Shown piece after piece: positions 51,127 through 54,459 of a stretch of DNA of 64,000 nt; position 1 is the stretch's first letter; the number at the start of each line of letters is the position of its first letter. The position numbers and the translations under genes were made by a program. Origin of the DNA: Arenibacter amylolyticus (lineage in GTDB: Bacteria; Bacteroidota; Bacteroidia; Flavobacteriales; Flavobacteriaceae). The notes under the pieces were generated by a model. That model was not told the DNA's origin, made no database searches, and saw only the letters and a list, made by a program, of their open reading frames with translations. Location of the stretch: positions 124,001-188,000 of the forward strand of contig NZ_MTAZ01000004.1 of the NCBI RefSeq assembly GCF_002150785.1, read 5' to 3'.

Positions 51127-51735
51127 ATGGCTTTTGAATTACCTAAGTTACCTTATGCGTATGACGCATTGGAACCACATATTGATGCTAGGACCATGGA
51201 AATTCACCATACCAAGCACCACAATGGATATACTACCAATTTGAATAATGCTATTGAGGGCATCGATATGGCCAATAAGTCCATTGAGGAGCTGTTGAAG
51301 AATTTGGATATGTCCAATGCAGCAGTTAGGAACAATGGAGGTGGCTTTTTTAACCACTCCCTATTTTGGGACGTTATGGGACCAAATGGTGGTGGTGAGC
51401 CTAAGGGCGAGCTAGCTGATGCTATCAACTCTAGCTTTGGATCTTTCGAATCTTTTAAGGATGCTTTCGCTAAGGCGGCAGCCACTAGGTTTGGTTCTGG
51501 TTGGGCTTGGTTATGTGTTCATGAGGGAGGTAAGTTGGAAATTTGTTCTACTCCTAACCAAGATAACCCACTAATGCCGGATACTGGCTGTGGAGGATTC
51601 CCAATTTTAGGATTGGACGTGTGGGAGCATGCTTATTACTTAAACTATCAAAACAGAAGGCCAGATTATATCAACGCTTTTTTCAATGTAGTTAATTGGG
51701 AAAAAGTAGCTGCTTCTTACGCAGATAAAAAGTAA
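51127..51735 (+). CDS. sodA: superoxide dismutase, Mn-type signature
   Basis: 202 residues, cytoplasmic enzyme converting superoxide to peroxide and oxygen. Metal ligands are His27 ([11 protein letters not shown]), the His of FFNHSLFWD, and the Asp and His of LDVWEHAYY. The Gln of [10 protein letters not shown] is where Mn enzymes carry their second-sphere Gln, while the Fe-type Gln before WNH is Gly here (GGGFFNH). The protein also follows E. coli SodA at [20 protein letters not shown]. Mn or cambialistic use is therefore likelier than Fe only. A perfect terminator follows. Confidence 0.94.
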
Positions 51736-51790: not shown

Positions 51791-51831
51791 AAAATCCCGT
51801 CTTAATTAGGTTTAAGACGGGATTTTTTTTG
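51791..51831 (+). terminator. terminator of the superoxide dismutase gene
   Basis: AAAATCCCGTCTTAA (51791-51805) pairs with TTAAGACGGGATTTT (51812-51826), loop 6, followed by a T run. It lies 56 bases after the stop. Confidence 0.92.
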
Positions 51832-51907
51832 AAATAGAAAAGGGTGGGAAACCCCACCCTTTTCTTCCCAAATCTTACCATAGGCTTAAATCTACTCATG
51901 CTATGGT
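51832..51907 (-). ncRNA. tandem small RNA, copy A
   Basis: Minus-strand unit of about 75 nt. Its -7 element TATTTTAG (51912-51919) lies 19 bases after TTTTG (51939-51943). The RNA begins near CACCATAGCATGAGTAG, continues through CTATGGTAAGATTTGGG and ends in the stem AGGGTGGG/CCCACCCT (51841-51848 with 51853-51860) followed by TTTTCTATTTC. ACCATAG and CTATGGT can pair as a 5' hairpin of 7 bp. The core is shared with copies B and C while the terminator stem is not, so the unit is maintained as an RNA. Confidence 0.72.
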
Positions 51908-52179
51908 GCAACTAAAATAAGAGTATTATGGTACATAACAAAAGAGTTCAAAGACGTCTCAGCTTAATTATAAGCTGTATTCGTATGAATTTTGCTGACT
52001 GGGAGGAGTTTTGTGGGCCATTGAATATCCTTCTCTGAGACTGCAAATTTGATGTCAGTCAATGGATTCGGCCTCTAATGAAGTAACAAGAAGGCGCTGT
52101 CCATTAAATTAAACTTCTACTTGCTGTGAGAGTGGTAGGGCTTAAAAATAGAGGATGGCATCAATTCGGATAGTGTTAA

Positions 52180-52256
52180 AATAAAAAGACAGAGCTTATC
52201 GCTCTGCCTTTTTCCCCAAATCTTACCATAAACTTAACCTACTTATGCTATGGTAC
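52180..52256 (-). ncRNA. tandem small RNA, copy B
   Basis: Minus-strand unit of about 75 nt with the exact -7 element TATGTTTG at 52259-52266. It starts near TACCATAGCATAAGTAGG, continues TTATGGTAAGATTTGGGG and ends in the terminator GGCAGAGC-GATAA-GCTCTGTC (52188-52208) with tail TTTTTATTTT. ACCATA/TATGGT forms the 5' hairpin. The distance from the -7 element to ACCATAGC is identical to copies A and C. Confidence 0.75.
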
Positions 52257-52383
52257 TCCAAACATAAGATTACCAAGGAAAGGGAAAAAAGGTTTTGGAT
52301 GAATGTCTGCTTAAAAGAGTTGAAATGCATCTTTTGGTAAAAAAGAGGCTGGTATGTGGAGGTGGTAGGGAGAAAATAGTAGA

Positions 52384-52463
52384 AAATAAAAAAGGCGGGG
52401 GAATACCCCGCCCTTTTTGCCCCAAATCTTACCATGAACTTAATTCTACTTATGCTATGGTAC
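52384..52463 (-). ncRNA. tandem small RNA, copy C
   Basis: Minus-strand unit of about 78 nt, 98 bases downstream of the purF stop. The -7-like element TAAATTAG (52466-52473) stands at the same distance from ACCATAGC as in the other copies. The core TACCATAGCATAAGTAGA ... CATGGTAAGATTTGGGG is followed by the terminator GGCGGGG/CCCCGCC (52394-52412) and TTTTTTATTTTC. An extra hairpin CTGCTA/TAGCAG overlaps the promoter. It has the weakest -33 region of the three. Confidence 0.72.
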
Positions 52464-52560
52464 TGCTAATTTAATAGCAGTCTGTGCGACATAGGTTAAA
52501 ACTGCGATAAAAAGTGATTTTTACCGATGAAATTCCCTTTTATCCCATTCTACAAGTCAA

Positions 52561-54459
52561 TTAATAGGCTCTTTCGTTTTTGCCTTCATAAAAGTTTATG
52601 AATGCCTTATTTACTACCCTATTACCACCTGGCGTGGGATAATCCCCCGTAAAATACCAGTCTCCTAAATTCTGTGGACAGGCTAGGTGTAAGTTGTCAA
52701 TAGTCTGGAAGATAATTTCAACCTCTGCCTTAATGTCTGGCGGACTTAATATTTCGCCGATCTTTTCGGATAATTCCTCATCCGTAAAGGGATCGTAAAA
52801 CTCTTTTACATAGTTGATGATTTTGGCGTCTGGGTTGTTCACTTGATTAACGCACTTTTGATAGATTTCCTCTACTAAATGCATGGTGCCCCGGTCTTTA
52901 TGCAATTCCAGCGCGGCCCTAAAAGCAACAAAGTCTTCCAGTTTAGCCATATCTATTCCATAGCAGTCGGGATAGCGGATCTGAGGTGCAGACGAAACCA
53001 CCACAATTTTCTTGGGAGATAAGCGGTCCAATATACCTAAGATACTCTTTTTAAGAGTGGTGCCCCGTACAATACTATCGTCAATAATAACCAGGTTGTC
53101 GCCCTTTTTTACAGATCCATAGGAAATGTCATATACATGTGCTACCAGATCGTCCCTACCATTATCTTGGGTAATAAACGTTCTTAGCTTGGCGTCTTTA
53201 ATAGCCACCTTTTCTATTCTTGGCCGTACTTCTAGGATATCGTGTAATTCCTCTGCCGTAATTTTCCTACCAATAGAAAGAATCTGTTCCTCTTTCTTTT
53301 TGTTCATATAATTCTGAGCGGCGATTACCATTCCAAAGAAGGAAGTTTCGGCCGTGTTGGGGATATAAGAGAACACGGTATTTCTTATATCCTCTTTAAT
53401 GGATTTAAGGATCAAGGGGAACAGTAATTTTCCCAACTCTTTTCTTTCCTGGTAAATTTCCTTATCGCTTCCCCTAGAGAAATAAATACGTTCAAAAGAA
53501 CACGCCTTACGCTCCGTAGGCTCTACAATCTTTTTGATTTTTACCTTGCCGTTTTTCTTGATGATAATTGCATGTCCAGGAGCTAGCTCCTTAACATCTT
53601 CAAAAGCAACGTTAAAAACGGTCTGTATGGCCGGTCTTTCGGAAGCTACAGCAGCCACCTCGTCGTCTATATAGTAATAGGCAGGGCGTATCCCAGCGGG
53701 GTCCCTAAGAACAAAAGAGTCGCCATGGCCTAACATTCCGGCCATCGTATAGCCACCGTCAAAGTTCTTTGCAGCCCGCTTTAGAATTTTGGCCACGTTT
53801 AGCCTTTCGGCAATAATGGGGGAGGCCTCCCTTTTATTAAAGCCCTCCTTTTTAATTTCCTTGTACAATTTGGCAACCGCATCATCCAAAAAGTGACCAA
53901 TCTTTTCCATAACGGTTACGGTATCGGCCTTTTCTTTAGGATGTTGGCCTATTTGAATCAGGTTGTCAAAAAGCTCATTAACATTGGTCATGTTAAAGTT
54001 TCCGGCAACAATAAGATTCCTGTGCATCCAGTTGTTCTGTCTTAGAAAGGGATGTACACTTTCTATACTGTTTTTGCCAAAGGTCCCGTAGCGAACGTGC
54101 CCTAAAAGCACCTCTCCAATATACGGAATGTAGCGTTTTTGCTTGGCTACATCATCAGCGTATTCTGGGTTTTCCTTTAGGCTGGTGTTGATGCGGTCGT
54201 TGATCTGCGCAAAAATATCCTGTATGGGTTGCTTGTCTATGGATCGTACCCGACTCATATACCTTTCGCCAACCTCCATGTCTAACTTTATGCTGGCAAA
54301 TCCAGCTCCATCCTGACCCCGGTTGTGCTGTTTTTCCATCATTAGGTACATCTTATTTACTCCGTAAAAGGCAGTACCGTATTTTTCTTTGTAATACTCC
54401 AATGGCTTTAGCAACCTTATTAGGGAAACTCCACACTCGTGCTTAATGGCGTCGCTCAT
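52561..54459 (-). CDS. purF: amidophosphoribosyltransferase-type enzyme (PurF family)
   Basis: 632 residues, longer than E. coli PurF (about 505) but as I recall usual for a Bacteroidota branch. The glutaminase domain begins after a short propeptide: the nucleophile would be Cys9 in KHECGVSLI, followed by HNRGQDGAGF and GHVRYGT. The phosphoribosyltransferase PRPP loop VIIDDSIVRGTT lies near residue 465. PurF makes phosphoribosylamine, the first step of purine synthesis. It shares the region with purN 2 kb upstream. A terminator separates it from the PfkB gene, so it probably has its own promoter. Confidence 0.9.
   Translation of the reverse strand: MSDAIKHECGVSLIRLLKPLEYYKEKYGTAFYGVNKMYLMMEKQHNRGQDGAGFASIKLDMEVGERYMSRVRSIDKQPIQDIFAQINDRINTSLKENPEYADDVAKQKRYIPYIGEVLLGHVRYGTFGKNSIESVHPFLRQNNWMHRNLIVAGNFNMTNVNELFDNLIQIGQHPKEKADTVTVMEKIGHFLDDAVAKLYKEIKKEGFNKREASPIIAERLNVAKILKRAAKNFDGGYTMAGMLGHGDSFVLRDPAGIRPAYYYIDDEVAAVASERPAIQTVFNVAFEDVKELAPGHAIIIKKNGKVKIKKIVEPTERKACSFERIYFSRGSDKEIYQERKELGKLLFPLILKSIKEDIRNTVFSYIPNTAETSFFGMVIAAQNYMNKKKEEQILSIGRKITAEELHDILEVRPRIEKVAIKDAKLRTFITQDNGRDDLVAHVYDISYGSVKKGDNLVIIDDSIVRGTTLKKSILGILDRLSPKKIVVVSSAPQIRYPDCYGIDMAKLEDFVAFRAALELHKDRGTMHLVEEIYQKCVNQVNNPDAKIINYVKEFYDPFTDEELSEKIGEILSPPDIKAEVEIIFQTIDNLHLACPQNLGDWYFTGDYPTPGGNRVVNKAFINFYEGKNERAY

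Follow-up and report, generated by a model that had tools for sequence, protein, structure and literature searches.

A putative, uncatalogued family of sibling small RNAs with split control in the purF-sodA gap of Flavobacteriaceae

The gap between sodA and a purF-like gene of Arenibacter amylolyticus contains a short core in three minus-strand copies, which raises the question of what these copies encode, under which control they stand and on what they act. The window, that is, the whole stretch of DNA analysed, has 64,000 nucleotides. The copies match the pattern ACCATAGCATNAGTAG...ATGGTAAGATTTGGG at 51867-51907 (A), 52215-52254 (B) and 52421-52461 (C). Their near-identity, noticed in the original prediction, is confirmed, and the 3.99 Mb genome has no further exact match; the reversed control of the pattern has 0 matches there, and covariance model R1, which is built on the 44-nt core and allows variation, likewise finds three. 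At least two highly similar sRNA genes per genome mark a sibling family, and here there are three, each with its own promoter and terminator at the level of the sequence. The product of the purF-like gene has a detected glutamine amidotransferase domain. Between copy A and sodA, at 51791-51822, a hairpin with T/A-rich flanks was seen by eye, which could be a two-way terminator. The features are collected in Table 1.

Table 1. Predicted features of the sodA-purF gap and its two neighbouring genes (positions in the window).
Feature	Position	Strand	Basis or remark
sodA, Mn/Fe superoxide dismutase	51127..51735	+	Usual convergent neighbour of the sRNA copies
sRNA copy A, putative basal type	51838..51907	-	Predicted +1 at 51907; 70 nt to end of first T-run
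Intrinsic terminator, copy A	51838..51863	-	Fold and terminator scan
Linker, copy A, AAGAUUUGGGAAG, candidate seed	51864..51876	-	Unpaired probability at least 0.9 over most of it
5' hairpin, copy A	51877..51907	-	Fold; paired changes across the family
-12..-5 box, copy A, TATTTTAG	51912..51919	-	TAnnTTWG
TTTG element, 19 bases before copy A box	51939..51942	-	
sRNA copy B, putative	52183..52254	-	Predicted +1 at 52254; 72 nt to first T-run
Intrinsic terminator, copy B	52183..52213	-	Clear fold; missed by scan
Linker, copy B, AAGAUUUGGGG, candidate seed	52214..52224	-	Predicted unpaired
5' hairpin, copy B, loop GUAGG	52225..52254	-	Fold
-12..-5 box, copy B, TATGTTTG	52259..52266	-	TAnnTTWG
Proximal direct repeat, copy B, ACATTCATC	52298..52306	-	TT at -49
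Distal direct repeat, copy B, CATTTCAAC	52319..52327	-	TT at -70
sRNA copy C, putative	52388..52461	-	Predicted +1 at 52461; 74 nt to first T-run
Intrinsic terminator, copy C	52388..52418	-	Fold and terminator scan
Linker, copy C, AAGAUUUGGGGC, candidate seed	52419..52430	-	Predicted unpaired
5' hairpin, copy C	52431..52461	-	Fold
-12..-5 box, copy C, TAAATTAG	52466..52473	-	TAnnTTWG
Proximal direct repeat, copy C, CTTTTTATC	52506..52514	-	TT at -50
Distal direct repeat, copy C, AATTTCATC	52526..52534	-	TT at -70
purF-like amidophosphoribosyltransferase	52561..54459	-	Usual upstream neighbour; match below curated cut-off

Each predicted RNA, about 70-77 nt overall, has the same layout in the predicted folds: a 5' hairpin, an unpaired linker AAGAUUUGGG(G) and an intrinsic terminator. 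It starts (+1) at the A of ACCAUAG. The hairpin takes up bases 1-31 in A and C and 1-30 in B, with the apical loop around GUAGG in B, GUAGAU in A and GUAGAA in C. The folds of all three RNAs beat every one of 200 dinucleotide shuffles (z from -4.0 to -5.0). The core had been described as single-stranded, which holds for the hairpin loop and the linker only, as its first 30-31 bases form the hairpin. Of the starts given at the same time 51907 stands, and those at 52256 and 52463 are corrected to 52254 and 52461. The three perfectly paired terminator stems, different in sequence in each copy, are present as quoted there; a simple terminator scan of a 901-base region gives 4 sites against 0.5 expected, two of them on the minus strand, at copies A and C. 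The T-rich tail of copy A runs on to about 51831.

With model R1, 201 of 249 Flavobacteriaceae genomes (179 of the 210 of good quality) prove to carry the family, with 1-7 copies per matching genome; homologues in other genomes are what the original prediction had named as support. In a phylum-wide sample 28 of 296 genomes match, 26 of them from Flavobacteriaceae. Model hits outside the family (L171, L172) lie in sequence that reads by eye as coding, and they were set aside. By the exact pattern, 22 of 60 genomes are positive, namely this one, 17 of 17 others of the genus and 4 of 19 from the rest of the family; in the remaining families of the order it is 0 of 23. Among the best 80 loci by SodA protein, several of which lie outside the family, copies are present at 48, always on the strand convergent to sodA. 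They belong to Arenibacter, Zobellia, Maribacter, Muricauda/Flagellimonas, Robiginitalea, Aquimarina, Flavobacterium, Formosa, Mangrovimonas, Algibacter, Kordia, Aequorivita and Mesonia, among others, and the sodA loci (these loci only) of, for example, Tenacibaculum, Winogradskyella, Polaribacter, Nonlabens, Myroides, Capnocytophaga and Galbibacter have no match. One pattern match (L070) has no R1 match and was left out of the 48.

The array is not always in one piece: several genomes of the genus carry it as two pairs that lie tens of kilobases from each other, one by purF (loci L008, L011) and the other by sodA (L034); at L137 purF adjoins the copies and sodA does not. The purF-sodA gap is nevertheless the usual address and looks ancestral, and since the family usually sits there, it is probably inherited vertically. 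Three types, told apart by promoter and tail, recur in many genera, with A by sodA, B between and C on the purF side. As they combine a common core with type-specific control regions, they suggest that one message is placed under different controls. In two genomes of the genus (L008, L011) the genes next to the purF-side copies look by eye peroxidase-like (AhpD-type) and OsmC-like, and such neighbours would be in keeping with a setting of oxidative stress.

Are these repeats genes for RNAs? In a set of 286 distinct copies, many of them from close relatives, every copy continues after the linker into a hairpin with 7 or more pairs in a row, in 202 different sequences, and 284 have the T-run. 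The set includes copy B of the window; the cores of A and C are too divergent for the stricter pattern behind the hairpin and repeat counts, and these two were assessed singly. An alignment fitted to the model (A4; 113 rows, 44 distinct, the false hits L171 and L172 included) has two-sided changes in 8 of 11 pairs of the 5' hairpin, and 92% of its cells are paired there. None of 500 shuffles reaches its covariation score, and with the pairing slid along, 15-46% of cells pair. In the smaller set of 20 distinct rows used at the start, covariation is weak, with 1 two-sided pair and 36 of 500 shuffles as high.

When 8-11 orthologous copies of different loci are compared, the terminator shows an identity of 0.82 for A, 0.81 for C and 0.55 for B, and downstream of the RNA identity falls to about 0.3; the core identity of 1.0 in this comparison is by construction, the core being the anchor. 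Over positions -40..-1 only type A keeps a high identity from genus to genus, with 0.81 (B 0.49, C 0.43). A coding pattern is absent, as a one-base indel within the core changes the ATGGTA frame. Because the core is conserved while the terminator varies yet stays paired, and because of the two-sided changes in the hairpin pairs together with the position of the -12 box, we regard the three repeats as very probably non-coding RNA genes. Comparison lends strong support to the original proposal of regulatory RNAs of about 75 nt that form a family and are transcribed independently.

The TAnnTTWG boxes had been described as equidistant from all three copies, and so they are, at -12..-5 from the core's first base; the upstream element of copy A with its 19-base spacer is also there, as TTTG. 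The -12 box is found in 206 of 276 copies and puts the start at the hairpin's first base. A sigma-A box at the same position is reported for Flavobacterium psychrophilum (PMC9723704).

Copies B and C, and not copy A, have in addition a pair of direct repeats upstream, which had gone unnoticed in the original prediction. The word TT[CTA][AG][TA]C piles up at -69/-70 and -49/-50, with 148 pairs at 20 and 42 at 21 bases, against at most about 2 at any distance in shuffles. Of 250 non-A copies 168 have the pair upstream, and none of 35 A-type copies has it (shuffles of the upstream DNA: mean 0.5, maximum 3); the 82 non-A copies without the strict pair include many that resemble variants by eye. 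Conversely, TTTG stands 18-20 bases before the box in 22 of 35 A-type copies versus 33 of 250 others. Across 31 genomes the strict repeat pattern occurs at 28 places: an sRNA core follows at 14 of them, and the remaining 14 are about as many as the reversed pattern gives by itself (13). In a sample of 1.66 Mb, rich in sRNA loci by choice, the pair together with the box is found at 132 sRNA copies and 7 other places, copy C being one of these, with 4 in shuffled DNA; within this sample the combination appears almost confined to sRNA genes. We suggest that B and C depend on a regulator and that A is basal, which we take to be likely.

Two further observations concern these upstream regions. At the purF-side copies of many genera (most of L116-L133) an extra motif, AAAAGTAGGAAAARTCTG, lies between the proximal repeat and the box and ends about 23 bases before the promoter box; it is perhaps a second regulator site. 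In some C-type copies (L048, L091, L138, L148) the half-site also occurs inverted, upstream of the distal repeat, for example CGATGAAATGCAC...GTGCATTTCATCG, which makes a larger palindromic array.

Which regulator could bind the repeats? AraC-type activators can use direct repeats about 21 bp apart, and such an activator may be considered as an alternative for B and C. We favour a protein of the LytTR class. LytTR proteins (AlgR/AgrA/LytR) are described as binding a pair of imperfect direct repeats, each 9-10 bp long and separated by 11-12 bp; for AlgR, CCGTTCGTC and CCGTTCATC are among the sites given (PMC4064291, PMC2766830). The repeat starts upstream of the sRNAs are 20-21 bp apart, which agrees with this spacing. 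Exact AlgR words, CCGTTC[AG]TC, stand upstream of 8 of 418 copies (not deduplicated), and most half-sites are degenerate with respect to the AlgR word, often with T in place of G. The genome has 13 LytTR genes; none was seen by eye in 9 sRNA loci, and a test for autoregulation found only one repeat pair near the 13 genes. Because the exact AlgR word is rare, we lowered our estimate for a LytTR regulator of B and C from an even chance to somewhat below it, and that for the explanation as a whole by a little. The regulator may exist largely to drive the sRNAs, since in the 1.66 Mb sample the pair with the box is almost confined to their genes.

We propose the following mechanism. Each RNA would start at the core's first base, fold the 5' hairpin, expose the loop GUAGG and the linker AAGAUUUGGG, and terminate. 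Copy A would be transcribed constitutively from its complete housekeeping-type promoter. An activator, most likely a LytTR-family response regulator, would bind the pair of direct repeats near -70 and -50, which have a spacing of 20-21 bp, and switch on B and C. As the exposed bases are common to the siblings, the total RNA level would then report the activity of the regulator above a floor. The linker, perhaps with the loop, would most likely pair to mRNAs. The whole of this explanation, with sibling trans-acting sRNAs, of which B and C are induced by an activator and A is constitutive, acting by pairing, has in our opinion marginally better than an even chance. At the level of the DNA text the family, its structure, boxes, terminators and repeats are established; transcription, regulator and pairing are what we infer. 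A broader reading, in which a LytTR two-component system with sibling antisense RNAs as its main output and one constitutive RNA as the floor forms a core riboregulator of Flavobacteriaceae, free of Hfq and RRM, is tentative, and slightly more so given the rarity of the exact AlgR word.

Most of the invariant bases lie in the unpaired loop and linker. This suggests that loop and linker pair with mRNAs, and antisense pairing, not protein binding, seems to us the reasonably probable mode of action. No mRNA target emerged, however. Against 312 start regions (genome G004 and the window) the linker scores 39 versus a block-shuffle mean of 27.5, with 7 of 40 shuffles as high, and so stays within the range of the controls. 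On the antisense strand of these regions the score rises to 62, which none of 40 shuffles reaches, and the frequency of the linker word is therefore not tied to sense start regions; gene interiors are similar, with 50. For 29 SusC-type start regions the linker gives 13 versus 7.2 in shuffles (7 of 60 as high, not significant) and the loop shows a deficit. In 37 genomes the linker complement CCCCAAATCT has, within the genus, more matches than the reversed word, which is a poor control for codons; the 27 non-sRNA places read in this genome (G000) and G004 show no consistent position relative to the start codon. An apparent target excess over 314 genes with simple shuffles (51 versus 23; 0 of 30) was rejected, as block shuffles and other positions removed it.

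Several SusC-type genes (L308, L312, L314-L317, L321, L333) share a TTCCCGATT-like (CCCGATT-type) block, which we read as promoter sequence. It sits roughly 45-65 bases before the start codon and perhaps belongs to an ECF sigma promoter.

Hfq and RRM_1 proteins have no Pfam-model match in this genome; for RRM_1 (PF00076) there is none at E 0.001, with a positive Bacteroides control. An RNA that acts by pairing would hence need no helper or an unknown one. The same search bears on another reading of the invariant loop and linker, namely that they are a protein-recognition element by which the RNAs bind and titrate a protein, as a CsrB-like decoy does. The nearly invariant exposed part, the several copies in many genomes and the lack of a significant target excess would agree with a decoy. 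However, each RNA has a single loop and a single linker, where known decoy RNAs carry many repeated motifs, and neither of the two protein families covered by the search, Hfq and RRM_1, is detected. We therefore consider a decoy unlikely and keep to pairing with mRNAs.

Could these RNAs correspond, in Flavobacteriaceae, to the FopS/GibS sRNAs of Bacteroides and repress SusC-like transporters? Both come from the same phylum and are multicopy, with the same type of promoter box and their own terminators, positions 9-71 of the 71 of the FopS model align with copy B, and the linker has its slight, non-significant fit to SusC-type starts. This alignment has 18.0 bits, however, against a gathering cut-off of 56 (E 0.6). 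Above the cut-off the model finds 0 of 148 genomes of the phylum, with a positive Bacteroides control, and this genome has no match; the single match below the cut-off, E 6e-5, lies in another family of the order. The 5' part of the FopS model, its seed, is unpaired, whereas the 5' 30 nt here are a hairpin with paired changes, and the RRM-1 partner RbpB has no counterpart of the RRM_1/RbpB type in this genome. We judge such a counterpart to be improbable.

Conserved small peptides starting at ATGGTAAGATTTGGG hardly come into consideration: the frame from 52435 in copy C is open for 70 codons and 164 copies lack a stop codon within the 95 bases inspected, but the one-base core indel splits the family into MVRFG and MVDLG frames, the frames that end do so after 2-22 codons or cross terminators of differing sequence, and the start codon lies inside a paired stem. 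Equally negligible is an origin as remnants or ends of a transposable element, for which the tandem arrangement and a mobile-looking element of the genus beginning with the exact linker complement could be cited, since the same neighbourhood recurs in many genera with subtype-specific promoters and terminators, viral contigs have no match to the family, and phages and plasmids give short matches to the terminator part only and none of full length. The check for such an origin, raised in the original prediction, thus yielded nothing that points to a mobile element.

The first bases of the mobile-looking repeated element are exactly CCCCAAATCTTACC, which is fully complementary to the sRNA linker region, and a long hairpin comes next. 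It was seen at L208 and L217 in this genome (G000, C31:43228 and C63:13890) and at L221, L226 and L229 in G004; at L208 and L226 it directly follows the 3' end of what appears by eye to be a tyrosine-recombinase gene. The 14-base complement may be due to chance, being picked from a 10-base search.

Is the family already catalogued? Rfam 15 at gathering scores gives nothing but a tRNA in the 64 kb window. The relation to Flavo-1 or another Rfam family, which had been raised at the outset, did not materialise, as none reaches its gathering score here; permissive thresholds give many low matches far below the cut-offs, the weak FopS match among them. A literature search for such a family in Flavobacteriaceae found no description among the papers listed. 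On the evidence of the sequence, we take an uncatalogued, Flavobacteriaceae-wide family of sibling sRNAs with proposed split control to be real.

Post-transcriptional control in Flavobacteriaceae is little known, and here an RNA family without a matching Rfam entry occupies usually one address in about four fifths of the sampled genomes. Since its starts are predicted, an exposed segment is conserved and an upstream element is defined, the signal, the regulator and the mRNAs become directly testable. The family also offers an opening onto the action of sRNAs in a genome without a detected Hfq or RRM_1 protein.

Last, we compare the family with the closest known systems. RNAIII, VR-RNA and FasX of Firmicutes are LytTR-regulated RNAs and thus likewise an sRNA output of a LytTR regulator, but they are single RNAs from another phylum, whereas sibling arrays occur here and the LytTR regulator is a proposed one. 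The csRNAs of Streptococcus pneumoniae consist of a hairpin, an unpaired region and a terminator, and their regulator CiaR is of the OmpR type. As is proposed here, several highly similar sRNAs are described there under one response regulator (PMC4507080). A known target of the csRNAs is comC. They come from another phylum, and the likeness is one of organisation; in contrast to them, the sRNAs here have LytTR-like sites and one sibling that is apparently unregulated.

Within the Bacteroidota, FopS/GibS of Bacteroides are described as multicopy paralogues of about 65-70 nt with their own sigma-A-type promoters (RF04319; PMC11697453), as the RNAs here would be. Unlike FopS, the latter score below the cut-off, have a structured 5' part, cluster at one locus and carry tandem direct repeats upstream. 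From the same bacterial family, a transcriptome study of F. psychrophilum reports 85 new RNAs, and the Rfp sRNAs, found by RNA-seq, are also independent sRNA genes; Rfp18 among them is conserved in the genus Flavobacterium and said to pair by its third stem-loop (PMC9723704). By description rather than by sequence, its three stem-loops differ from the two hairpins here. An Rfp RNA may nevertheless be one of these copies, in which case the family has partly been seen as transcripts already. New here is the direct-repeat pair at about -70/-50 of B and C, with a spacing such as LytTR regulators use. Overall, the proposed action would resemble that of sibling sRNAs driven by a response regulator, such as the csRNAs, in a layout similar to that of the FopS family.
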